Below the pieces are notes generated by a model. The model did not search any database, had not been told where the DNA came from, and was given only the letters and a program-made list of their open reading frames with translations. A stretch of 64,000 nucleotides of DNA, from the NCBI RefSeq assembly GCF_001704115.1, contig NZ_CP016895.1, positions 248,001 through 312,000 on the forward strand, in the 5' to 3' direction. Each line of letters opens with the position of its first letter. The first letter of the stretch is position 1. The position numbers were made by a program, and so were the translations under genes. The DNA comes from Acinetobacter larvae. Its GTDB lineage: Bacteria > Pseudomonadota > Gammaproteobacteria > Pseudomonadales > Moraxellaceae. Positions 12,145 through 47,351 of this stretch are shown here, in pieces.

Positions 12145-13695
12145 ATGGCACGTGCTCCAAAGAAAGAAACCAAGCAGGAATCTCTAGAGGTTGTACTGTG
12201 GAAAGCAGCAGATAAATTGCGTAAAAATATTGATGCTGCTGAATATAAGCATGTGGTACTCGGTCTAATTTTTCTCAAATATATTTCTGATTCTTTTGAT
12301 GTACATTATCAGCAATTGGTCAAAGGTGAAGGTGAATTTGTAGGCGCTGATCCTGAAGATCGTGATGAGTATATTGCCTATAATGTTTTCTTTGTACCTG
12401 AGCAAGCACGTTGGAACTATCTGCTTAGCCAAGCCAAGCAAACTACGATTGGTCAATTGGTTGATGCAGCAATGGAAGCCATTGAGGGGGAAAACCCACA
12501 GCTCAAAGGTGTACTACCTAAAGTCTATGCGCGGCAAAATCTAGATGCCACCATACTGGGTGAGTTGATCGATATGATCGGCAATATCGCACTCGGTGAT
12601 GCCAAAGAGCGCTCTGCTGATGTGTTAGGTCATGTATTCGAATACTTTCTTGGTGAGTTTGCGCTTGCAGAAGGAAAACAAGGTGGTCAGTTCTATACGC
12701 CTAAGTCCATCGTAAGCCTCTTGGTGAATATGCTTGAGCCCTATAAAGGCCGTGTCTTTGATCCATGTTGTGGTTCGGGTGGTATGTTTGTGCAGTCGGA
12801 GCAATTTGTCGAAGCACACCAAGGCCGTATTGATGACATCTCAATCTATGGTCAGGAAAGTAACCAGACAACTTGGCGCTTAGCCAAGATGAACTTGGCG
12901 ATTCGTGGCATTAATGCAGAACATGTCAAGTGGAACTCGGAAGGTTCATTTCTCAATGATGCGCATAAAGACCTGAAAGCCGATTATATTATTGCCAATC
13001 CACCCTTTAACGTCTCTGATTGGAGTGGTGAGCAATTGGCAGGTGATGCACGCTGGCAATATGGAACACCACCAACGGGCAATGCCAACTTTGCTTGGAT
13101 GCAGCATTTCTTGTTTCATCTATCACCCAAAGGCCAAGCAGGTGTGGTACTGGCCAAAGGTGCACTGACCTCTAAAACCAGTGGTGAAGGTGAGATCCGT
13201 AAGGCTTTGGTGGCTGAGGCCAATGTGATTGATTGTATTGTCAATTTGCCTGCAAAGCTTTTTTTGAACACGCAAATCCCTGCTGCACTATGGTTTATGC
13301 GGCGTGATCGTGCCAACTCCAGCAGCTACCGTGATCGTAGCGGTGAAATCCTATTTATCGATGCACGTAACTTAGGCCATCTAATCAACCGTCGTAGCAA
13401 GGTGCTCTCTGAAGAAGATATTCAATTGATCACCGATACTTACCATAATTGGCGTAATCCAGAAGGTGCTTATGAGGATGTGGCTGGTTTTTGTGCCTCA
13501 GTGTCACGTGATAAAGTCGCAGAACTCGACTATGTACTCACCCCAGGGCGTTATGTTGGACTAGCGGATGATGAAGATGAATTTGACTTTAAAGAACGCT
13601 TTACAGCACTAAAAGCAGAGTTTGAGGCGCAGTTGGTAGAGGAAGCTCAGCTGAATCAAGCTATTGTGGAGAACTTGGCAAAGGTGATGGTATGA
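12145..13695 (+). CDS. hsdM: Type I restriction-modification methyltransferase HsdM
   Basis: N6-adenine methyltransferase subunit, 516 residues. The N-terminal HsdM helical region ([36 protein letters not shown]) leads into the catalytic domain with SAM motif [12 protein letters not shown] (about residue 208) and catalytic motif IV NPPF (about 288). HsdM modifies host DNA and is also needed with HsdS and HsdR for cutting unmodified DNA. The stop overlaps the hsdS start by four bases (ATGA), so translation is coupled. Confidence 0.96.
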
Positions 13696-14753
13696 GGGAG
13701 CAAGGCTTATTGGATTTAGTTAATCTTACGACCGGTAAGTTAAACTCTAATATGGCTGTGGAAAATGGAAAGTATCCATTCTTTACATGTTCACCTGAAA
13801 CATTGTTAATTGAGCAATTTTCATTTGATACTAAGGCTTTGCTTTTGGCAGGGAACAATGCTGAAGGTAACTTTTGTCTCAAGTACTATGAAGGTAAGTT
13901 TGATGCTTATCAAAGAACATATGTACTAACACTTGATGATGAGTCTGCAACGACTTACAAGTACTTGTTCTATTATCTGAAAACCAAATTGCTTGAGTTG
14001 AAGAATAATTCAGCAGGATCAGCAACTAGATTCCTTACATTATCTATTCTGCGTGGTATTAGAGTACCTTTACCTCCTCTCCCTGAACAAAAAGCCATTG
14101 CCGCAGTGCTTTCATCACTGGATGATAAAATCGATCTACTTCATCGCCAAAATAAAACCCTAGAAGCGATGGCTGAAACGCTATTTAGGCAATGGTTTAT
14201 TGAAGAGACAAAGGCAGATTGGGAGGAGGGAGTGTTGGGTCAACTTATAGACCTTAAATATGGTAAAGCTTTGAAGCAAGAAGATCGTTCTGGTACAGGA
14301 TATCCTGTTATGGCATCTAGTGGTATTGTTGGTTTTCATAAAGAATATTTAGTAGAAGGGCCAGGTATTGTTATAGGCCGTAAAGGTACATTAGGTAAAG
14401 TCTATTTTATAGTGGATAACTTCTATCCAATTGATACAAGCTATTTTATTCAATCCAAAGTCTCTCAAAGTAATCTGATTTTTGAGTATTTCCTGCTCAA
14501 GTCATTAGACTTTGTTAACATGAACAGTGATTCTGCTGTGCCAGGTTTGAATAGGGATATCGCGCTAGGTACACAGATTCAAATACCTCCGCACAAGAGT
14601 ATTTTAGAATTTAATCAGATTACATGTCCTTGGTTTAGTAAGTTTCATGCAAATACTAATCAAATCCAAACCCTTGAAAAACTCAGAGATACCTTACTAC
14701 CAAAGCTTATGAGTGGTGAAGTACGGGTACAGTTTGAGGAACAAACCCAATAG
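13692..14753 (+). CDS. hsdS: Type I restriction-modification specificity subunit HsdS
   Basis: 353 residues with two target-recognition domains. TRD1 (about residues 1-130; [10 protein letters not shown]) is followed by the central conserved region ([20 protein letters not shown] then a coiled helix ending [10 protein letters not shown], about 133-176). TRD2 is about 180-325 ([19 protein letters not shown]), and the C-terminal conserved helix repeats the central one ([17 protein letters not shown]). TRD order defines the bipartite DNA target, which cannot be read from sequence. TRD1 is AT-rich compared with hsdM, as expected for exchanged specificity domains. Confidence 0.93.
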
Positions 14754-14852
14754 TCATTGATCAGGACAGCTCCGCAGTGCTGCTGTCCTACAGAAGCAAA
14801 ATAGAAAGATAAGCCAGCCTATGGGCAGCACTTGAGTAAAGTTGGAAAGCGT

Positions 14853-17800
14853 ATGAAAGAGTCCGATATTGAGCATATGGCGATCGCGCTATTGCAAGCA
14901 CAAGGTTATACCGCGGTTTATGGCCCCGATATTGAAGCGTCTGGGCTTTATCCGATGCGTAGCTATAAGCAAGTTGTGCTGGAAAAGCAACTGTTGCAGA
15001 ACATACAGCGTCTCAATCCACAACTGACTGAAGACAAATGCCAAGAAGCATTGAAACAGGTGCTTGCTATCCAATCACCTGATTTGCTTAGTAATAACCA
15101 AGCATTTCATCGTATGCTCACCGAAGGCATTAGCCTTGAAGTGCAAAAAAATGGTCATACTCAAGGTGAACTGGTCTGGCTCATCGACTTCGCACAGCCA
15201 AGCAATAACCAATTTCAAGTGATCAGCCAAATCACCATTAAAGAGGCGCGCCGTACGCGTCGTCCAGATTTGATACTCTATGTCAACGGCTTGCCATTGG
15301 TGGTTATTGAGTTGAAAAGTGCCGTGAGTGAGAGTGCCAGCGTGGAGACGGCCTACAATCAGATTCAAACCTATCAAGATCAAATTTCGACGCTATTTAC
15401 CTATAATGCATTCAATGTGATTTCGGATGGACTGGAAGCCAAAGCAGGCACCATTTCCGCAGATTTCAGCCGTTATATGGCATGGAAGACTGGTAATGGC
15501 GTAGACAAGGCAACTAAGACCCAGCCACAACTTGAAGTACTGATCCAAGGGTTGCTCAACCCAATCACGCTACTGGATATGATCCGACATTTTACCGTGT
15601 TTGAGGCGACCAAGCATCAAGATGCACAAGGTCTGATTACGATAAAAACCATTAAAAAAATAGCAGCTTATCATCAGTATTATGCGGTCAATAAGGCGGT
15701 ACTTTCGACCATTCGGGCGACAGCGGTCAATAGCAGTTCTCAATCTGCCGAAAGCGCCATGCAGATCCAAGGAGGCAATAAAAATAACCTCGTTTCAGAG
15801 CAAATATTAGGTGACCGTAAAGCTGGGGTGGTGTGGCATACCCAAGGTTCAGGGAAATCTTTGTCGATGGTGTTCTATACAGGTAAAATTGTACTGGCAT
15901 TGGACAATCCTACTGTGCTGGTGCTGACTGACCGTAATGATCTTGATGATCAGTTATTTGGAACTTTTGCTGCATCAGCGCAGTTGCTTCGACAAACACC
16001 ACAGCAAGCGGATTCGCGTCAAGAACTTAAAGAATTGTTGAAGGTCGGTTCGGGTGGGGTGATTTTTACCACGATACAAAAGTTCCAACCTGAAGATGGT
16101 TCAAGCATCTATGAGCAACTGTCTGATCGGACCAATATCATTGTGGTGGCAGACGAAGCACACCGTTCACAATATGGTTTTAGTGCGCGAGAGGTCAATG
16201 TCAAAGACCAAGATGGTCAGGTGACAGGGAAGAAAACCGTTTATGGTTTTGCCAAATATATGCGTGATGCACTGCCAAATGCCACCTATCTTGGTTTTAC
16301 AGGTACACCGATTGAGAGCAATGATGTTAATACACCTGCAGTATTCGGTAACTATGTCGATATCTATGATATTTCTCAAGCGGTTGAAGATGGTGCTACG
16401 GTCAGAATTTTCTATGAAAGTCGTTTGGCGAAAATTAGTATCAGCGACGAAGGCAAGGAGCTGATCAAAGCTTTTGATGATCAGTTTAGTGAAGATCAGC
16501 TCAACGAAACTCAAAAAGCGCGTGGTAAATGGGCACGTGTTGAAGGGCTGATTGGAAGTCGTGAGCGTATCAAAGCCATTGCCCAAGATATTGTGCAGCA
16601 TTTCGAACAACGCTTGGTCGCCAATGCCAATCAAGGTAAAGGCATGGTTGTCAGTATGTCTCGGCGTATCGCAGTTGCACTTTACAATGAGATTGTTGCG
16701 CTTAGACCTGAATGGCATAGCGATGATCTCTATGATGGCGTGATTAAGGTGGTGATGACTGCCAGCGCAGATGACGGTGCGGATATTGCTAAACACCATA
16801 CCACTAAACGTGAGCGACAAACTTTAGCCAATCGCATGAAAGACAATGACGATAAATTGAAGTTAGTTATTGTCAGGGATATGTGGTTAACAGGCTTCGA
16901 TGCGCCAAGTATGCATACCTTGTATATCGACAAGCCGATGAAAGGTCATAACTTGATGCAAGCCATTGCGCGGGTTAACCGTGTCTATAAAGACAAAGTC
17001 GGTGGCTTAGTGGTGGATTACCTCGGCATTGCATCTGATCTCAAAGAAGCCCTATCGTTCTATTCCGATGCAGGGGGGAAAGGTGATCCTGCTTTGGTGC
17101 AAGAAGAAGCCGTTACGCTGTTGCAAGAGAAGCTCGAAGTGTTGGATGCCATGATGCATGGTTATGATTATCGTGCTTATTTTTCAGCAGATACTGCCAG
17201 AAAACTTTCGATTATTTTAGAGGCTGAAGAGCATATCCTCGGACTTGATCAAGGTAAGGCGAAAACACGTTTTTTGAGTGCAGTATCTACGATGTCACAA
17301 GCTTTTGCCTTAGCGACCCCCCATCCAACCGCGATGGAACTTGCAGCCGTAGTTTCTTTTTTCCAATCACTAAAAGCACGATTAATAAAGTTCAATTCTG
17401 GCACTGGCCAAGGTATAACGGGCAATGACGCTGAACTAGAAGCTAAGGTTAAACAAACAATCGACCAAGCTTTGGTGACAGAGCAAGTGATCGATATTTT
17501 TGATGCTGCAGGTATTCAAAAACCTGATATTTCCATTCTATCTGATGAGTTTATGGATGAAATGCGTGGCTATGAGCATAAGAATATTGCCCTTGAGACA
17601 CTCAAGAAATTACTAGCAGATGAAATCAAAGTACGAGAGAACCGTAGTGTTACACAAGGTAAAAAATTGATGGATATGCTGAGTTCTGCGATCAAAGGCT
17701 ATCAAAGCAAAGTTCTCACGGCTGCGGAAGTGATTGAAGAGTTGATTAAGCTTGCAAAAACCATTCAAGAGTCAGATAACTTGGCTGCTGAACTCAATCT

Positions 17801-18083
17801 GACCGAATATGAATATGCGTTCTATTCCGCTGTAGCCGAAAATGAAAGTGCGCGTGATCTCATGGAGAAAGACGTGCTTAGGGAGTTAGCCATCGTACTG
17901 ACTGCTTCAATCCGTCAGAATGTTAGTATTGATTGGTCAATCAAAGAATCTGCTCGGGCAAAAATCCGTGTGATTGTGAAGCGGCTACTGAAAAAATACG
18001 GTTATCCACCAGATATGGCGTTGTTGGCGACAGAAACAGTATTGCAACAAGCAGAGCAATTGGCGGATGAGCTAGCAGTATAA
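14853..18083 (+). CDS. hsdR: Type I restriction endonuclease subunit HsdR
   Basis: Motor/nuclease subunit that translocates and cuts unmodified DNA. I choose ATG 14853 (GGAAAG upstream, MKESDIEHMAI typical of HsdR); a TTG at 14832 would add seven residues. The PD-(D/E)xK nuclease (RRPDLILYVNGLPLVVIELK) is followed by helicase motif I TQGSGKSLSM and motif II DEAHRSQYG. Later come TYLGFTGTPI (motif III), VIVRDMWLTGFDAP and QAIARVNRVY (motifs V-VI), then the C-terminal HsdR helical domain. About 1076 residues, full length. An 80-bp gap separates it from hsdS. Confidence 0.95.
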   Translation: MKESDIEHMAIALLQAQGYTAVYGPDIEASGLYPMRSYKQVVLEKQLLQNIQRLNPQLTEDKCQEALKQVLAIQSPDLLSNNQAFHRMLTEGISLEVQKNGHTQGELVWLIDFAQPSNNQFQVISQITIKEARRTRRPDLILYVNGLPLVVIELKSAVSESASVETAYNQIQTYQDQISTLFTYNAFNVISDGLEAKAGTISADFSRYMAWKTGNGVDKATKTQPQLEVLIQGLLNPITLLDMIRHFTVFEATKHQDAQGLITIKTIKKIAAYHQYYAVNKAVLSTIRATAVNSSSQSAESAMQIQGGNKNNLVSEQILGDRKAGVVWHTQGSGKSLSMVFYTGKIVLALDNPTVLVLTDRNDLDDQLFGTFAASAQLLRQTPQQADSRQELKELLKVGSGGVIFTTIQKFQPEDGSSIYEQLSDRTNIIVVADEAHRSQYGFSAREVNVKDQDGQVTGKKTVYGFAKYMRDALPNATYLGFTGTPIESNDVNTPAVFGNYVDIYDISQAVEDGATVRIFYESRLAKISISDEGKELIKAFDDQFSEDQLNETQKARGKWARVEGLIGSRERIKAIAQDIVQHFEQRLVANANQGKGMVVSMSRRIAVALYNEIVALRPEWHSDDLYDGVIKVVMTASADDGADIAKHHTTKRERQTLANRMKDNDDKLKLVIVRDMWLTGFDAPSMHTLYIDKPMKGHNLMQAIARVNRVYKDKVGGLVVDYLGIASDLKEALSFYSDAGGKGDPALVQEEAVTLLQEKLEVLDAMMHGYDYRAYFSADTARKLSIILEAEEHILGLDQGKAKTRFLSAVSTMSQAFALATPHPTAMELAAVVSFFQSLKARLIKFNSGTGQGITGNDAELEAKVKQTIDQALVTEQVIDIFDAAGIQKPDISILSDEFMDEMRGYEHKNIALETLKKLLADEIKVRENRSVTQGKKLMDMLSSAIKGYQSKVLTAAEVIEELIKLAKTIQESDNLAAELNLTEYEYAFYSAVAENESARDLMEKDVLRELAIVLTASIRQNVSIDWSIKESARAKIRVIVKRLLKKYGYPPDMALLATETVLQQAEQLADELAV

Positions 18084-18155: not shown

Positions 18156-18527
18156 CAGAATCCATTATCATATACAGATCCAAGAGGAGAAACCCCAGCA
18201 CATGTCGGTGCAGGGACTGGGGTATATGCGTTCGGTGCTGCTGTTATAGCTGGTGGTGCATGTTATATAAATAATTGCGGTGAAGTTATTCCTGTAGCAA
18301 TGGAGGCTGGTGGAAAGGCTTGGGATTCTGTCACGACGTTAATGGCGGCTCCAGGAAACCAAGCAGACTCAGCGATAGTTGATGCGTTTGGGCGAGAAGC
18401 TAGTAGATCTGATGATAGATGTGAATGGCTTAGAAGAAATGCTCATAGATTTCCGAAAGCAGCGGTTAAAGCAACTGAAAAGGCTTGGGGCTGTCGTCAT
18501 AGTAGAGCAAGTAGGGATAAAAAATGA
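18156..18527 (+). pseudogene. Orphan RHS C-terminal toxin-tip fragment
   Basis: The frame is open from 18156, just after a stop, and starts with NPLSYTDPRGETPAHVGAG, the characteristic end of an RHS-repeat core. A variable C-terminal domain with a hydrophobic Ala/Gly stretch follows, ending in DDRCEWLRRNAHRFP and KATEKAWGCRHSRA. No RHS repeats, start codon or ribosome site lie upstream; the first in-frame ATG (18300) is inside the tip. So this is a headless RHS tip, as left by recombination at rhs loci. The stop overlaps the start of the next gene, as in toxin-immunity pairs. I cannot name the toxin activity with confidence. Confidence 0.8.
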
Positions 18528-19102
18528 TTAAAGATAATGAAACTAGTTTAGCGATTTTTGCAAGTCGATATTTAGATACATTACCGACAGCAGAATTATT
18601 TGAATGGATTGATGATAAGAGTGCAGAAGTTAGAACTTTGGTTGCAAGGAACTTGCAGTGTCGAGGTACAAAAGAAGTTTATAAATTTGCAAAGAAAAGA
18701 ACAAAATCATCTAAAGTCTACCAAAGAGAGATCGCTGCATTTATTTTAGGACAATTAGGTTGTCTATTTACTGGATCTGAAAAATATCCTTTTAAATTAC
18801 AGTCAAAATCTCTGTTAATGAGTTTAGTGGATGATAGATCAAAATCTGTAAGGGCAGCAGCAATAGCAGGCCTCGGACATCTGTATATCGATGGATTGGA
18901 TAAAGACATTGAAAATCTAGTCATTAGGCATTCAAAAGATAAATCTAAAGTGGTTAGGATAGCATTGTCTATAACGTTGGGAGCTTCTTCTGGTAATAAA
19001 AAAATACGTAAAATTTATACAGATTACTTAAAACAAGGTGGTGAGGTTGCCGAGTGGGCAGAAGTAGGCTTGGAAATACTTAATGATAGATTACAAACCT
19101 AA
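18524..19102 (+). CDS. HEAT-repeat protein, putative immunity to the RHS tip
   Basis: 192 residues composed of HEAT-like helical pairs (DDKSAEVRTLVARNLQ; DDRSKSVRAAAIAGLGHLY; KDKSKVVRIALSITLGA). No signal peptide, so cytosolic. It overlaps the RHS tip fragment by four bases (ATGA). Position and fold fit an immunity protein that binds the toxin tip. It is AT-rich relative to neighbouring core genes, consistent with transfer as a tip/immunity cassette. Function is inferred from context. Confidence 0.72.
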   Translation: MIKDNETSLAIFASRYLDTLPTAELFEWIDDKSAEVRTLVARNLQCRGTKEVYKFAKKRTKSSKVYQREIAAFILGQLGCLFTGSEKYPFKLQSKSLLMSLVDDRSKSVRAAAIAGLGHLYIDGLDKDIENLVIRHSKDKSKVVRIALSITLGASSGNKKIRKIYTDYLKQGGEVAEWAEVGLEILNDRLQT

Positions 19103-19227: not shown

Positions 19228-19381
19228 AGACCTAGACCATCAGACTATTGAAGCGATGGACCAAGAAACAGCACGGCTCCAAAAACACTAGACCATAAAA
19301 AACCCCATAAATCTTAGACTTACGAGGTTTAATACTGGTGCCGACACTCGGATTCGAACTGAGGACCTACTGATTACAAGT
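19228..19381. repeat. Direct repeat A, left copy (tRNA-Thr 3' end plus terminator)
   Basis: 154 bp nearly identical to 22964-23117 (constant offset 3736). It contains the last 46 bases of tRNA-Thr including encoded CCA (19336-19381, minus orientation), the tRNA terminator hairpin and the last codons of a small ORF (DHQTIEAMDQETARLQKH). Identity stops in the anticodon arm, so this is a tRNA fragment, not a gene. It is the signature of an integration or duplication event at tRNA-Thr. Confidence 0.92.
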
Positions 19382-20242
19382 AAAGGTAAATTAACATAAA
19401 ATATATAAAAAACAATAAGTTATAATATTTATTTTGTATCAAGATCAATAAAATCAAGAGGGCTATAGTATAAAATGTAAGGCGTTGTTTTGTAAGGAAA
19501 AGCATATATGAGGTCGCTCGATATTCAAATTTCCAAAATAGCTAAGTATCAGAATAATAAGTAATTATTTTTGGAGATAGACCACGTTTTGGACCTTGTT
19601 TCGCAGTCGTTATCCTGATGAACCCTAAACGTAACTCGAAGAAAATAAAGAATCTTTTCAAAGACCGTCGTAGACCCTATTGTTTTCTGGGATGAGTCAT
19701 TGCAAATTCCCAGTACCCATAGATGGCGAGTGATACCCAAATAGTCCAATTTCGCAAAGTGTTTTGTTCGGCAGAACAAATTACAGGGGGTGTCAGATTG
19801 CCAAAAAATATACCGCAATCAACACAATTGGCTAGGTCTTGTGCCCAGTGTGAGAGCAGTCCAAATTCAAGGCAATCCTTGCAAAATGCTCATCGCCAAA
19901 ATGGCAGCACAGTCAAATAAAAAAATAAGCGAAACTCCCCCTAGCAAATGACAAAGGCAGAAGGAAAGCCAACAGCAAGTCAAAAAAATGACAGCGATCA
20001 AATTTTCCCCCTGAATACTCCACCTCAGTTTTTACCTCGCCAAAGCACATTGCGAGTCCGCAATACACCTGTCGAGCATGGGCTTGGATGAAGTGAAAAT
20101 AATGCTGGTCTGTGATTCTCATAGCCTAAAAATACAAAGACAAACTGCCCAGAAATACTAGGCAGATAGAAAAATGAAGTTTAACTAATCAACATTGTGG
20201 AACTTTGATCAAAAAAAAATACGTGGAACATGAAAATTCATA
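19382..20242. other. Gene-free remnant region with repeat B, left copy
   Basis: About 860 bp of very AT-rich DNA followed by a mixed stretch with only short ORFs. Bases 19927-20012 are repeat B, nearly identical to 22847-22932; read on the minus strand it keeps the frame GGKFDRCHFF, LLLAFLLP, SFARGSFAY. No credible full gene seen; likely debris of a mobile element. Confidence 0.6.
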
Positions 20243-20276
20243 AAAAAACCCGATCCGTAAGGATGGGGCTTTTTTT
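20243..20276. terminator. Hairpin terminator at the left edge of the pdif-like module
   Basis: Stem ATCC-GTAA-GGAT extended by CCC/GGG and A/T runs on both sides, with TTTTTTT on the right. Could end transcription in either direction beside the module. Confidence 0.7.
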
Positions 20277-20315
20277 GTGTTTTAAGAGACTGATTTAAAA
20301 AGAGAAAGTTAGGCC

Positions 20316-20343
20316 ATTTCGCATAAGGTGTACCATGTTAATT
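20316..20343 (+). other. pdif-like XerC/XerD recombination site (left, C/D orientation)
   Basis: 28 bp in the 11-6-11 layout: XerC-type arm ATTTCGCATAA, spacer GGTGTA, XerD-type arm CCATGTTAATT. It closely resembles the pdif sites that bracket mobile modules on Acinetobacter plasmids; the CC at the start of the D arm is the main departure. Inverse in orientation to the site at 22595. Confidence 0.8.
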
Positions 20344-20412
20344 TTAGATATTTTTAAGAATCAAATACACTAATGGAAGAAATAAGGCATCTTAATTATC
20401 CACTCATATTGA

Positions 20413-21027
20413 TTAAATTATAGTCAGAACTTTAGAGAGGGGTTTTCTTGGTTTCTGAGGCCAATTATTACTCGTTGCATAACCTACAGCAACAATCAAA
20501 ACAGGTATCTCAGTTGAGTTAAGTCCAAACTCATAAGCGACCTGTGTCCCATCAAAACCTCCTATTGCACAGGTTCCTAAACCTATATCTTGAGCTGAAA
20601 GCATTAAAGACATCGCTGCTAAAGATGCTGATCGAATAGCTTCATCTCGCTGTAATATAAAGTTTCCCTCATGGGAAGCGATTTGGGTAACCCATGCATC
20701 GACAACCTTTTGCTCCATGATATTTGCTTCTAAGCTGGGCTGTAACGCTGAGCGTAATTGTTTATGTGCTTCCAAAGTACCACATATGATGAAATTTACT
20801 GAACAATTCAGAATCTTGTCCTGCCCAAATGCTGCAGCTTGCAAACGTATTTTTGCACTTTCTGACCTTACAGCAATAAACCGCCAATTTTGCAAATTGT
20901 AGGCTGATGGTGACTTGGTCGCTAAATCAACCAATGATGTAATGACTTCATCTTTTAGTGGACGATTCGGCTGGAAGCTATTTACCGAAATTCGAGTATT
21001 AATAATATTTTTTAGAGAAGTATTCAT
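20413..21027 (-). CDS. Nitroreductase family protein
   Basis: FMN-dependent NAD(P)H oxidoreductase of the nitroreductase fold, about 204 residues. RISVNSFQ near the start and SPSAYNLQNWRFIAVR match the FMN phosphate- and ring-binding segments; GLGTCAIGGFDG matches the C-terminal part. I choose the ATG at 21027 (MNTSLKNIINTR); an upstream in-frame start at 21087 would run into the EamA gene. It follows the EamA transporter by about 20 bp on the same strand. Together with the divergent MarR regulator it suggests a small detoxification or export module. Confidence 0.87.
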   Translation of the reverse strand: MNTSLKNIINTRISVNSFQPNRPLKDEVITSLVDLATKSPSAYNLQNWRFIAVRSESAKIRLQAAAFGQDKILNCSVNFIICGTLEAHKQLRSALQPSLEANIMEQKVVDAWVTQIASHEGNFILQRDEAIRSASLAAMSLMLSAQDIGLGTCAIGGFDGTQVAYEFGLNSTEIPVLIVAVGYATSNNWPQKPRKPLSKVLTII

Positions 21028-21046
21028 AATAAGTACCAAATAAAAT

Positions 21047-21916
21047 TTAAATAGCTCGTGAACTTGTCCATTGGACAGCGAACACACTAATTAGCACAAT
21101 GATTAACCCCCAAAGTGCAGTTCCAGAAATTGATTGTGAAAGTAGCCACCAACCTAATACTACAGCTGTCAGTGGACTGAGTAGACCAAGTGATGCAACA
21201 GCTACTGTGGGTAACCGTACGACTCCTCTAAACCAGAGTGCATATGCAAGTAAAGCACCTGCCATGCTAAGGTAAATGTAGGCAAAGTATTGCAATGGTT
21301 TTAATAGAGGAAGAGGCGCATCAAAGAAATACATCATAGGCATAAGCATCAAACCACCAATGACAAGTTGCCAGCCTGTCATTGCTAATAATGGTAAGTC
21401 CAGTTTCCATCGACTTGTAAGCCATACTCCACAAGCCATACAAGCCGCTCCCAGTAATGCTGCTACAATACCAATAGGATCAAATACTGTGCGAGGTGAT
21501 AATAATAAAATCGCCATTCCACATATGCCTGCCATAGCTGAACATAGAGTGGATAATAAAGGAGACCGTCCATCTATTAGCCAAGCTATTAGCATCACTA
21601 ATAATGGTTGAATTGCACCGAGTACTGCTGCTAATCCTCCGGGTAAACGGTAAGCAGCGATAAATAGAAGAGCTTGAAAAATACCGATATTTAATGCCCC
21701 AAGAATTAATAAACGCCACCAGTCTTTTTTTGCAGGCATATGTCGGGTAAATAAAAGTAATAAAAATCCCGCTGGCAATACACGTATCAGAGCAGCTGTG
21801 AAAGGTCGATCTGCTGGAAGTAGCTCAGATGTTACGATGTAAGTAGACCCCCAAATAATGGGTGCAAAAGCGGTCAGCATGGCATCTTTCCATGGGAAAG
21901 AAGTTTTTATTGGCAT
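21047..21916 (-). CDS. EamA/DMT-family transporter
   Basis: 289 residues with ten predicted membrane helices in two EamA halves (APIIWGSTYIVTSELLPADRP opens the first; GAACMACGVWLTSRWK the second). It probably exports a small metabolite or drug. Divergent from marR with a 69-bp gap containing two palindromes, so the MarR protein likely represses it. The C-terminal segment is Trp/Ser-rich (VQWTSSRAI). Substrate unknown. Confidence 0.88.
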   Translation of the reverse strand: MPIKTSFPWKDAMLTAFAPIIWGSTYIVTSELLPADRPFTAALIRVLPAGFLLLLFTRHMPAKKDWWRLLILGALNIGIFQALLFIAAYRLPGGLAAVLGAIQPLLVMLIAWLIDGRSPLLSTLCSAMAGICGMAILLLSPRTVFDPIGIVAALLGAACMACGVWLTSRWKLDLPLLAMTGWQLVIGGLMLMPMMYFFDAPLPLLKPLQYFAYIYLSMAGALLAYALWFRGVVRLPTVAVASLGLLSPLTAVVLGWWLLSQSISGTALWGLIIVLISVFAVQWTSSRAI

Positions 21917-21926
21917 ATTTTTACCA

Positions 21927-21948
21927 TTTATCTTGAATTTAAGATAAA
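21927..21948. promoter_or_regulatory. Palindromic operator O1 in the eamA-marR intergenic region
   Basis: Near-perfect inverted repeat with half sites TTTATCTTGAA and TTTAAGATAAA, immediately upstream of the EamA start. It shares the TATCTTGAA motif with the second palindrome at 21966. Typical MarR operator size. Confidence 0.72.
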
Positions 21949-21965
21949 ATAATTGTGCAGACCAA

Positions 21966-21985
21966 TTACCTTGAAGTCAAGATAA
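21966..21985. promoter_or_regulatory. Palindromic operator O2, directly before marR start
   Basis: TTACCTTGAAGTCAAGATAA, an inverted repeat of TTATCTTGA with one mismatch, ending at the base before the marR ATG. A bound regulator would block marR expression, consistent with autorepression. Confidence 0.68.
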
Positions 21986-22504
21986 ATGAATAAACAATCT
22001 AATCGTAATAATTTTGATATGGTGGATGTCATTCTTGAGCAATGGCAGAAAGAACGCCCAGATCTTGATATCTCACCTATGGGACCTATTGGGCGTATTA
22101 AGCGATGTGCAATTCTTTTAGAACGCCAACTTGAATCAAAATTTGCAATGTTTGATCTTAATCTTTGGGAGTTTGATATGTTGGCTACATTGCGGCGTTC
22201 AGGTGCCCCATACTGCCTAAGTCCAACAGAACTTTTCTCAATGCTGATGGTCACTTCTGGAACGATGACTCATCGACTAAAGCGACTGGAAAGTAGAAAT
22301 CTGATAAAGCGCGTCTCAAACGTAGAAGATGCTCGTAGTACACTTGTACAACTTACAGAGAAGGGGCTTGAGCTGATTGATGTTGCTGTAGAGGAACATG
22401 TTAAGAATGAACATATAATACTTGAAAAATTGCCCGCAGATGTTCTTAAAAATCTTGATGAACACTTAGCTATGTTACTAAAAACTCTAGAGGCACCCAT
22501 CTAA
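21986..22504 (+). CDS. MarR family transcriptional regulator
   Basis: 172 residues. The winged helix-turn-helix is visible (LSPTELFSMLMVTSGTMTHR as recognition region, then VEDARSTLVQLTEKG as the wing, about residues 73-125), flanked by dimerisation helices. Divergent from EamA/nitroreductase; two TATCTTGAA-type palindromes lie between them. Likely a ligand-responsive repressor of the transporter operon and of itself. It is the regulator of a complete cargo module enclosed by two pdif-like sites. Confidence 0.9.
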   Translation: MNKQSNRNNFDMVDVILEQWQKERPDLDISPMGPIGRIKRCAILLERQLESKFAMFDLNLWEFDMLATLRRSGAPYCLSPTELFSMLMVTSGTMTHRLKRLESRNLIKRVSNVEDARSTLVQLTEKGLELIDVAVEEHVKNEHIILEKLPADVLKNLDEHLAMLLKTLEAPI

Positions 22505-22594
22505 GGATGTCGATACAATTGAGAAAATTTAAAATGTATCTGAAGTTAGAAAAACATGTTAGAAATCCAAATAACAAACTTAAATTCTGTTTCT

Positions 22595-22622
22595 ATTTAA
22601 CATAATGGGCATTATACGAAAC
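22595..22622 (-). other. pdif-like XerD/XerC recombination site (right, D/C orientation)
   Basis: 28 bp: XerD-type arm ATTTAACATAA, spacer TGGGCA, XerC-type arm TTATACGAAAC. Inverse orientation to the site at 20316, as in plasmid-borne pdif modules. The enclosed 2.3 kb carries nitroreductase, EamA and marR. Confidence 0.82.
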
Positions 22623-22846
22623 ACCATTGTTAGAACCCATTTAAAGTGTCTATATCCTCACCAATAAAAATGTCTGATTTATGATGTTCATCGTCACAGA
22701 CCATGCTTACGGCGAGATTGCTCCAAAATGCCCCTAAGTAAACAGCATTGCTGGGGTCCTGTATTGAGGGTGAGAGCAACCGAATCTGTGTCGATCCTCG
22801 TAATTATGGCTGTGCCCAAAGCGTAGCGCAGCCAAAAAATAATCAT

Positions 22847-22932
22847 AAGCGAAACTCCCCCTAGCAAATGACACAGGCAGAAGGAAAGCCAACAGCAAAC
22901 CAAAAAAATGACAGCGATCAAATTTTCCCCCT
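22847..22932. repeat. Repeat B, right copy
   Basis: 86 bp nearly identical to 19927-20012 (offset 2920). Here it abuts repeat A almost directly (22964), whereas in the left copy A comes before B with 545 bp between them. Minus-strand translation keeps a hydrophobic, signal-like peptide in both copies. Confidence 0.85.
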
Positions 22933-22963
22933 ACTATATCCACCAAGTTTTTTGCTACGCCAA

Positions 22964-23147
<184 letters not shown>

Positions 23148-45882: not shown

Positions 45883-47079
45883 TCAGGCTAATTTTGCTTT
45901 AGGAAAAGGAATCACATTATTCCGCATACTATCAATAAAATCTGACCACTCTTGCATCATCTTGATTCGATAGTCCATATGTTGAGCATGGTTATAGGCT
46001 TGAGACACTGCGTTACCAACTTTATGCGCTAATTGGACTTCAATAGCATCGTGCATGTAGCCTTGTTCATGTAGTGTGGTTGAGGCTAGCCCCCGAAAGC
46101 CATGACCAGTCATTCTGCCGTTATATCCCATTGTGCGGATTGCACATAATAATGCATTACTACTAATCGGTTTCGCCGTGCTGTAATTATAAAAAACATA
46201 TTGTTTGATACCCGTAATTGGGCGAATCAGCTCTAATATATCTATTGCTTGCTTTGATAGTGGAACGATGTGCGGTAGAGCCATTTTCATTTTCTCAGCA
46301 GGAATACGCCATAGTCGATTTTCAAAATCAACCTCACTCCATTCCATTAGCCTAAGCTCAGCGGTTCTGACAAAGGTAATCGTCATGAGTTGTAATGCAG
46401 ATTTGATAATTAAATTGCCATGATAGCGATCCATTCTTTCAAGAAAAGCAGGAAATTCAGAAATATCTAAACGTGCCATATGTTTCACTTTACGGGGCTT
46501 TAGCGCCTCTTGTAAGTGAGGTGTAGGATCATGTTCAATTATGCCTTTACGGATTGCAAAACGAAAAATACGCCCAGCCAAAGGGATAGAGCGTTTAGCC
46601 ATTTCTTGTGCGCCACGTTGTTCAATTTTCTTGGCACACGCAAGAACATCTTTCCCATTGATTTGATCAATAGGCAAGTTCCCAAGAGCAGGGAATAAGT
46701 CTTTCTCAAATACTGATAGATCACGTAAGTAGGTAGTTTCTTTGATAACGGCTTTACGATCTTCCATCCACTCCATAGCAAGTGATTTAAAAAGAATATT
46801 TTCATCAATTTGTTGTAAGCGTTGGTTCTTGACCGCATTAGGATCAATATTGCTGTAAAGCTGAATACGAGCCTCATCACGGGCACGGCGAGCTTGTGCT
46901 AATGTAATTTCAGGATAGCTGCCAATGGTTAATGTGCTTTCACGCCCGTCAAATCGGTACTTCAAACGCCAAAATTTACCACCAGCTGGAGTGACTTCTA
47001 GATACAAGCCTTTCTCATCAGAATAGCGTTTCTTCTTTTCAAGTGGCTTGATCTTTCTAATTTGAGCATCTGTGAGCAT
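45883..47079 (-). CDS. P4-type tyrosine integrase
   Basis: 398 residues. N-terminal arm-binding (DUF4102-type) domain MLTDAQIRKIKPLEKKKRYS and GLYLEVTPAGGKFWRLKYRF; core-binding helices; catalytic domain with Arg in FVRTAELRLMEW, Lys in AEKMKMALPH, His-x-x-Arg in MTGHGFRGLAST, His in LAHKVGNAVSQAY and nucleophile Tyr in AYNHA. It lies next to the tRNA-Ser end of the island, the usual position, and should act on the att repeats described here. Appears intact. Confidence 0.95.
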   Translation of the reverse strand: MLTDAQIRKIKPLEKKKRYSDEKGLYLEVTPAGGKFWRLKYRFDGRESTLTIGSYPEITLAQARRARDEARIQLYSNIDPNAVKNQRLQQIDENILFKSLAMEWMEDRKAVIKETTYLRDLSVFEKDLFPALGNLPIDQINGKDVLACAKKIEQRGAQEMAKRSIPLAGRIFRFAIRKGIIEHDPTPHLQEALKPRKVKHMARLDISEFPAFLERMDRYHGNLIIKSALQLMTITFVRTAELRLMEWSEVDFENRLWRIPAEKMKMALPHIVPLSKQAIDILELIRPITGIKQYVFYNYSTAKPISSNALLCAIRTMGYNGRMTGHGFRGLASTTLHEQGYMHDAIEVQLAHKVGNAVSQAYNHAQHMDYRIKMMQEWSDFIDSMRNNVIPFPKAKLA

Positions 47080-47194: not shown

Positions 47195-47266
47195 CAAAAA
47201 AGGCTTAAACCCTTTAGATTTAAGCCTTTAATACTTCATGAGAACTCATGATATTCGAATCTGGCG
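47195..47266. repeat. attR of the tRNA-Ser island
   Basis: 72 bp paired with 40874-40945. Contains the tRNA-Ser terminator (GGCTTAAA / TTTAAGCC with a T-run on the minus strand) and reaches the tRNA 3' CCA. Confidence 0.9.
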
Positions 47267-47351
47267 GTGAGAGAGGGATTCGAACCCTCGATACGCGCAA
47301 ACGTATACACACTTTCCAGGCGTGCTCCTTCAGCCACTCGGACACCTCACC
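47262..47351 (-). tRNA. tRNA-Ser (anticodon GGA)
   Basis: 90 nt including CCA and a long variable arm, as expected for tRNA-Ser. Acceptor GGTGAGG / TCTCACC, anticodon loop CTGGAAA (GGA), T-arm GGTTCGAATCC. Target of the island; the gene is intact on this side. Confidence 0.96.

Follow-up and report, generated by a model that had tools for sequence, protein, structure and literature searches.

A chromosomal D-type dif module carrying a nitroreductase–EamA–MarR unit in Acinetobacter larvae, flanked by a candidate Xer accessory sequence

The stretch of the Acinetobacter larvae chromosome analysed here, hereafter the window, spans 64,000 nucleotides (assembly GCF_001704115.1, contig NZ_CP016895.1, positions 248,001 to 312,000; G000:C1:248001-312000 in our genome set, G000 being a single-contig genome of 3.74 Mb) and contains a three-gene unit bracketed by two pdif-like sites, 28-bp XerC/XerD targets with an 11-6-11 structure. 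Positions refer to the window unless a genome or locus handle is given. The left site (20316..20343, + strand) reads XerC arm to XerD arm (C/D), ATTTCGCATAA GGTGTA CCATGTTAATT, whereas the right site (22595..22622, − strand) is D/C and in the C-to-D reading is GTTTCGTATAA TGCCCA TTATGTTAAAT. Since the left site is C/D and the right one D/C, the XerD arms face inward, the inverse orientation for which PMC13141974 uses the name D module. An earlier note, drawn from the bare sequence, had described two such sites in inverse orientation around a three-gene unit and its operators; our scans bear this out, with both sites bracketing the three genes and their intergenic region.

The operon between the sites comprises an EamA-family transporter gene (gene 1; 21047..21916, − strand, 289 aa, PF00892) and a nitroreductase-family gene (gene 2; 20413..21027, − strand, 204 aa from ATG, PF00881), and a MarR-family regulator gene is transcribed divergently (21986..22504, + strand, 172 aa, PF01047). 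Two operator-like palindromes, TTATCTTGAATTTAAGATAA (21928..21947) and TTACCTTGAAGTCAAGATAA (21966..21985), separate eamA from marR, the second adjoining the marR start codon. Both were found again in seven hand-picked loci from four genera (Acinetobacter, Paenalcaligenes, Acidovorax and Pantoea), a recurrence that supports control by the MarR protein; the cargo is probably self-regulated, with MarR repressing eamA–nitroreductase through the two palindromes. For this cargo, whose EamA protein is a transporter of the drug/metabolite type, we infer a role in detoxification or efflux.

Each 28-mer occurs a single time when up to three mismatches are allowed, and a shuffled control gave 0/100 matches. 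A scan of the source genome with a degenerate Acinetobacter dif/pdif pattern returned six sites at ≤2 mismatches with no reversed-control match, and nine sites against two control matches at ≤3; because control matches appear at the looser level, only ≤2 mismatches was treated as clean. The six sites are the primary dif (G000:1846731, spacer TGTATA), the left and right module sites (two and one mismatches to the pattern, respectively), an inverted pair at 1306216/1306595 and one site at 3009884. Both module sites are plainly of Xer type, but the left one has probably lost its activity. Its XerD arm is CCATGTTAATT in place of TTATGTTAATT, with changes at the two positions adjoining the spacer, and this variant with otherwise consensus arms occurs in 1 of 175 Acinetobacter genomes, the source genome itself. 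As PMC11705084 describes, xrs107, which diverges in ATAA-N6-TTAT, is not catalysed; by comparison with that site, the altered arm suggests that the left site is probably inactive. The module spacers are also unlike (GGTGTA and TGCCCA), so the left and right sites should not recombine together. One recombinase encoded in the source genome scores above the cut-off for XerD, and another, with 274.9 bits, we take as XerC; both are open frames. Three GGTGTA-spacer sites lie in one orientation at G000:C1 268316, 1007110 and 1306216 (two, three and one mismatches). Recombination between the outer two (268316 and 1306216) would excise ~1.04 Mb, and it is the window copy (268316) that has the altered XerD arm. 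A weak extra pair occurs at G000:3009884/3010495 (two and three mismatches).

The right flank carries the trace of an insertion sequence (IS). Outside the right XerC arm come 5 bp (22623-22627) and then TGTTAGAACCC..., the beginning of a truncated IS1202-family, ISAjo2-like end (22628..22687, + strand). For ~60 bp it matches one end of the ISNCY/IS1202-type element carried by plasmid pALWED3.1 (L007), whose copy is intact, with a transposase gene and a 5-bp duplication, CGACT, on both sides; a complete element with transposase and 5-bp duplication was not found in the window, where homology to the intact IS stops after ~60 bp. IS1202-family elements of the ISAjo2 group have been described as ‘dif site hunters’ located 5 bp from XerC arms (PMC10132070). 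The window end agrees with that description in sequence, orientation and 5-bp distance, and differs in that only ~60 bp of one end is kept, without transposase. A second chromosomal D module in the source genome (L006:8217-8623, G000:C1:1306216-1306622) encloses a 93-aa YCII-domain open reading frame (ORF) between inverted sites and likewise has an IS1202-family end beside the XerC arm, at a distance of 5 bp. In G082, a 30-bp perfect hairpin (L085:9082-9111) lies between an IS1202-family end and the XerC arm, where the usual gap is 5 bp.

On the left, the XerC side of the module carries a conserved non-coding element (20184..20274, + strand; 61.9 bits against a hidden Markov model trained without the window sequence) that ends ~40 bp from the XerC arm. 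It comprises two GTGGAAC motifs (20197..20203 and 20223..20229, both + strand) and a terminator-like hairpin (20249..20268, + strand) with an A tract before and a T tract after it. Left-flank matches occur in 97 of 175 Acinetobacter genomes, with four candidates scored per genome. Among 30 loci returned by similarity to window 20150-20300, a query from which the pdif site was excluded, 29 carry a colinear pdif at ≤2 mismatches (28/29 without the window), the exception being L120; relative to the window spacing, the offset in the 28 is +1 (n=24), 0 (n=2), −1 (n=1) or +6 (n=1). Flanks anchored on the XerC arm (24 non-redundant of 29, window included) are conserved from about −130 and share GTGGAAC-type motifs at a spacing of ~25 bp, together with a GC hairpin that has A/T tracts, mean pairwise identity being 0.31 from −180 to −136, 0.64 from −135 to −61, 0.55 from −60 to −1 and 0.92 in the site. 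Hairpin pairing is kept in 41 divergent flanks, with double changes at eight of nine pairs, consistent with covariation, and each pair is broken or gapped in 1 to 11 of the 41. The gap between element and XerC arm, in a non-random sample of 62 element-bearing sites, is 40 bp in 50, 39 bp in five, 41 bp in three and 42, 36 or 33 bp in four. An interpretation of the flank as what is left of a ‘ser’ recombinase module (L008) was dropped, as this flank is also found behind orfX and behind several further genes.

The distribution of the element was assessed independently with a profile from 23 flanks, the window excluded, run on 38 secondary sites (≤2 mismatches) in 12 other single-contig chromosomes. 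We name spacers by their ends as GTA or CCA types. The element (≥31 bits) was detected at 11 of the 19 sites whose spacer ends in GTA versus none of the 19 others (Fisher p 1.3e-4); a conserved XerC-side sequence at fixed distance, as expected of a Xer accessory sequence, thus accompanies 11/19 GTA-class test sites. Scores below 31 bits came from a single GTA site (8.4 bits) and from one of the 19 others, where the match (14.7 bits) lies on the opposite strand, and on the XerD side the element was found at 0/38 secondary sites. Counts over all distinct sites gathered (GTA 54/80, CCA 1/37, other 7/25, primary dif 0/4) include many sites chosen by flank similarity, and the fair test is the 38-site set. 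With the element of the G138 chromosome as query, matches were obtained in 527 plasmid records, 521 of them from Acinetobacter. Ten plasmids spread down the ranking had a pdif at offset 0 in nine cases, L152 having the element and no pdif; rep-orfX lay upstream in four, and the upstream genes of the remainder include a serine recombinase, toxin-antitoxin genes and umuDC, among others. The element also follows rep-orfX in L096 and L097. Four 4-8 kb ‘Acinetobacter phage’ records match it as well (PP798960.1, PP799044.1, CAKLQF020000043.1 and CAKLQH020000068.1) and may be plasmids filed as phages.

The cargo itself is rarely met. A search of 175 Acinetobacter genomes, which scored two candidates per genome so that more matches may exist, gave long DNA matches in 3 of the 174 other genomes (G015, G119 and G081) and a 140-bp match in G076. 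All three cargo genes are present in G015 and G119, and eamA and marR were found in G081; no pdif was detected at ≤4 mismatches in these cargo-bearing stretches. The earlier note had held that presence of the segment in all related chromosomes without a pdif context would speak against its reading; the long matches in 3 of 174 genomes do not show such a general presence. Among plasmids, where the note had suggested looking for the same module between the same sites, no record covers 80% of it: 204 records matched, and every listed match consists of the right site and the IS1202-family end without the cargo. The best plasmid protein relatives among the matches listed (nitroreductase 49.5%, EamA 66.1%) belong to other genera; the tally also includes four Acinetobacter records, each <60%. 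An EamA scan of genome contigs returned Paenalcaligenes and Acidovorax relatives only. A direct plasmid origin of the module by sequence match was dropped, given the lack of 80% cover and the distance of the protein relatives listed. As far as the collections show, the cargo set would be an ordinary operon that came to lie between pdif sites through a single capture.

The module sits beside a tRNA-Thr gene (tgt; 23072..23147, − strand) whose 3' end and downstream sequence are duplicated, as the note had seen, over 154 nt at 98% identity, with the tRNA-proximal copy at 22964..23117 and the distal copy at 19228..19381. A second direct repeat, absent from that note, links 19915..20045 and 22835..22965 (85%); its left copy has relatives in G081, G082 and G119, and its right copy forms with the IS end a 339-bp stretch that is 94% identical in G082 and 81% in G081. 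Because it lies between the tRNA-Thr-end duplication and the second repeat, the module is inside a decayed tRNA-Thr integrative element; the duplicated tRNA 3' end typical of such elements is present, and no integrase was found between the tRNA-Thr repeats among ORFs of at least 80 aa in the window. Elsewhere in the window, ORFs at 12145-18083 resemble by eye a type I restriction-modification system, and a HEAT-repeat ORF (18524-19102, Pfam) adjoins the tRNA-Thr repeat. An open frame of 411 aa, which perhaps encodes a tyrosine integrase, contains a weak XerD-profile match (46231-46770, 33.8 bits) near a tRNA-Ser (47262-47351) and possibly marks another island.

Related flanks lie beside other genes in two genomes. 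In G081 (L086), the left flank is 83% alike up to the pdif site, after which the first interval holds a gene without Pfam match (weak PADLOC match) followed by capH-like and capP-like genes. A pdif follows whose outer side is 74% identical to the window right flank, then a dCTP-deaminase-like gene and another pdif with a 79% flank; each of these right-flank homologies begins at a pdif. The stretch has a copy of the tRNA-Thr end, no tRNA gene, and a phage-type integrase gene. G082 (L085) has the right-flank stretch at 94% identity, ~450 bp from a tRNA-Thr gene, with one pdif 30 bp past the IS end and another 4.4 kb on in the same direction, a 3-mismatch site between them and a Gp49/HTH (helix-turn-helix) gene pair among the genes of the interval. 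Judged from these alignments, the same flanks have enclosed differing dif-module cargo in at least two genomes, at least one of them other than the source genome. An empty-site search through the neighbouring Dyp-peroxidase region gave, among the matches listed, hits of that gene and of the rest of the query at separate places. In L086:6562-12628 (G081:C135), IS-end repeats and pdif sites separate the dCTP-deaminase-like gene from the capH/capP-like pair, which suggests that phage-defence genes travel in chromosomal dif modules.

Chromosomal arrangements of this kind are not isolated. In 16 single-contig Acinetobacter genomes picked from the cargo-search listing (at least G145 and G148 were left out), secondary sites were present in 13 and numbered 43; pairs within 5 kb comprised 11 D pairs in eight genomes, two C pairs and three direct pairs, and the reversed control gave two matches versus 59 sites. 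Secondary chromosomal dif sites and modules of Acinetobacter have been described (PMC6449649, PMC12907356), so the module is not a new kind. The suggestion in the earlier note of a pdif-like module with a self-regulated, possibly novel cargo thus holds for the inverted-site D module in the chromosome, which is probably self-regulated, and is not supported as a claim to a new class; the module joins the chromosomal dif modules already known, with a cargo that we did not find in print. Nitroreductase cargo was not found in the pdif/dif-module literature among the matches listed, and no co-mention of EamA with pdif in Acinetobacter appeared in the literature searched.

Comparison with described systems places the module more precisely. 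With the D-type dif modules of Rep_3/OrfX plasmids, as characterized in PMC13141974 and PMC6449649, it has in common inverse 11-6-11 sites whose XerD arms point inward, spacers of two types with GTA and CCA ends, a small cargo with a regulator of its own and C-module-like flanks; it differs in being chromosomal, in a cargo not met in the literature searched, in the altered left XerD arm and in that no plasmid copy was found. Chromosomal dif modules and islands (PMC12907356; the A. indicus terC module of PMC6449649) show the same arrangement away from the primary dif. Those published modules, some of which carry resistance genes, are reported to share ~99% identity with plasmid modules (PMC12907356, PMC6449649), whereas for the window module, which is located in a tRNA-Thr island and appears decayed, the collections searched gave no close copy. 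The ohr-ohrR dif module described in PMC6449649 likewise pairs a MarR-family regulator with a small detoxification-type gene, although the genes differ.

Our best explanation, which we hold with good though not full confidence, is that the locus is a chromosomal D-type dif module, a relic of a plasmid dif-module array in a decayed tRNA-Thr element, now probably fixed, whose left-flank element may aid or restrict XerCD. Both outer flanks look plasmid-derived: the left would be an end of the C-module type, as occurs behind orfX on Rep_3/OrfX plasmids, and the stump of the dif-targeting IS1202-family element would begin the right one. Host XerC and XerD, as reported for plasmids, would move modules by exchange with matching-spacer sites, and the operon may have been captured by such an exchange. 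Since the sites are inverted and their spacers differ, the module would be unable to excise alone; with the left site probably uncleavable as well, it would now be effectively fixed. At GTA-spacer sites, the left-flank element may contribute to the assembly of the XerCD complex or to its restriction.

The element is a candidate Xer accessory sequence, for which a precedent exists: the plasmid dimer-resolution sites cer and psi have ~100-200 bp of XerC-side sequence at fixed phase. We propose an analogy on these two features, and the near-constant distance combined with a varying hairpin argues for a function at the site in the manner of cer and psi. The element differs from them in showing no ArgR or ArcA box by eye, in its other motifs and in the hairpin in between.

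A broader form of this proposal, which we advance tentatively and rate a little short of an even chance, is that GTA-spacer pdif sites, plasmid-borne and chromosomal alike, have on their XerC side an accessory sequence that has gone unrecognised, with two GTGGAAC motifs ~25 bp apart and a covarying hairpin, ending ~40 bp from the XerC arm. This sequence would bind a protein, perhaps the plasmid-encoded HTH protein OrfX, and control Xer module exchange. A description of the element was not found in the literature searched, which covers part of the field. The Xer sites of such modules are characterized in PMC7399989 as lacking accessory sequences. According to PMC11705084, no accessory sequences were found in the vicinity of xrs38 and xrs66, both of which have T/CCGCCA-type spacers; that result agrees with the near-absence of the element at CCA-type sites (1/37).

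Conservation of the flank could also reflect descent, the element being an inherited end of a plasmid backbone or C-module (a terminator plus another binding site) that spread whenever it was joined to new D modules. The terminator-like hairpin, the partial conservation of the sequence between element and site, and matches to a Rep_3-type rep at 17 and to OrfX at 13 of the 28 non-window flank-picked loci all fit this account. We nevertheless regard it as rather doubtful, because rep, OrfX and ser matches (E ≤ 0.01) are missing in the window and at the 11 element-bearing chromosomal loci, for which mostly ~700 bp per side was covered, because the nearest mechanically called ORFs at the flank-picked loci fall into 15 groups upstream and 27 downstream, and because the distance to the XerC arm stays at 39-41 bp in 58/62 sites though the hairpin sequence varies. 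That an ordinary resident operon happens to lie between two dif-like sequences, themselves due to chance or degenerate, is highly improbable: the pdif-free cargo units of G015 and G119 and the degenerate left XerD arm would suit it, whereas the clean scan of the source genome, the IS1202-family end 5 bp from one arm together with a phased element on the left, and the occurrence of both flanks at pdif sites around other cargo in G081 all contradict it.

The route into the chromosome is a separate matter, and here the chances seem evenly balanced that the dif-module array came as cargo of the tRNA-Thr integrative element, carried by the integrase of that element and not by Xer. The duplicated tRNA-Thr end, the flank sequence common to islands in G081, G082 and G119, and the phage-type integrase gene on the G081 stretch point this way; the lack of an integrase ORF between the tRNA-Thr repeats does not. 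Such an origin would explain the address of the module and not its pdif sites, and adds to the interpretation as a plasmid-array relic instead of replacing it.

Several observations weigh against that interpretation or parts of it. The module is only mildly low in G+C (0.387; 37th of 247 2,250-bp windows within the 64 kb), and the role of MarR and the substrate are putative. A second copy of the cargo between pdif sites was found neither in plasmids nor in the 175 genomes, at two candidates each, and the module is classed by structure only. G082 shares the right flank alone, without the left element, and its two clean sites are direct, not inverse; because the spacers of G081 and the window differ, exchange of cargo between them may have proceeded by homologous recombination of the flanks and not by Xer. 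As to the element, the support for its role is comparative throughout. It is missing from 8 of the 19 independent GTA-class sites and so is not universal, the GGTGTA site at G000 1306216 lacks it and has an IS end on its XerC side, and partial conservation (0.55) extends into the interval that separates it from the XerC arm, which weakens the fixed-length argument.

The flanks shared with G081 indicate that chromosomal dif-module cargo varies between genomes and includes phage-defence-like genes there. If the proposed accessory sequence is real, it would give module ends a polarity, one end controlled and one free. A phased, conserved element beside GTA-class sites makes the question of accessory sequences directly testable, and the answer would bear on how single dif modules move, and on the role of OrfX, in a system that shuffles resistance genes among Acinetobacter plasmids.

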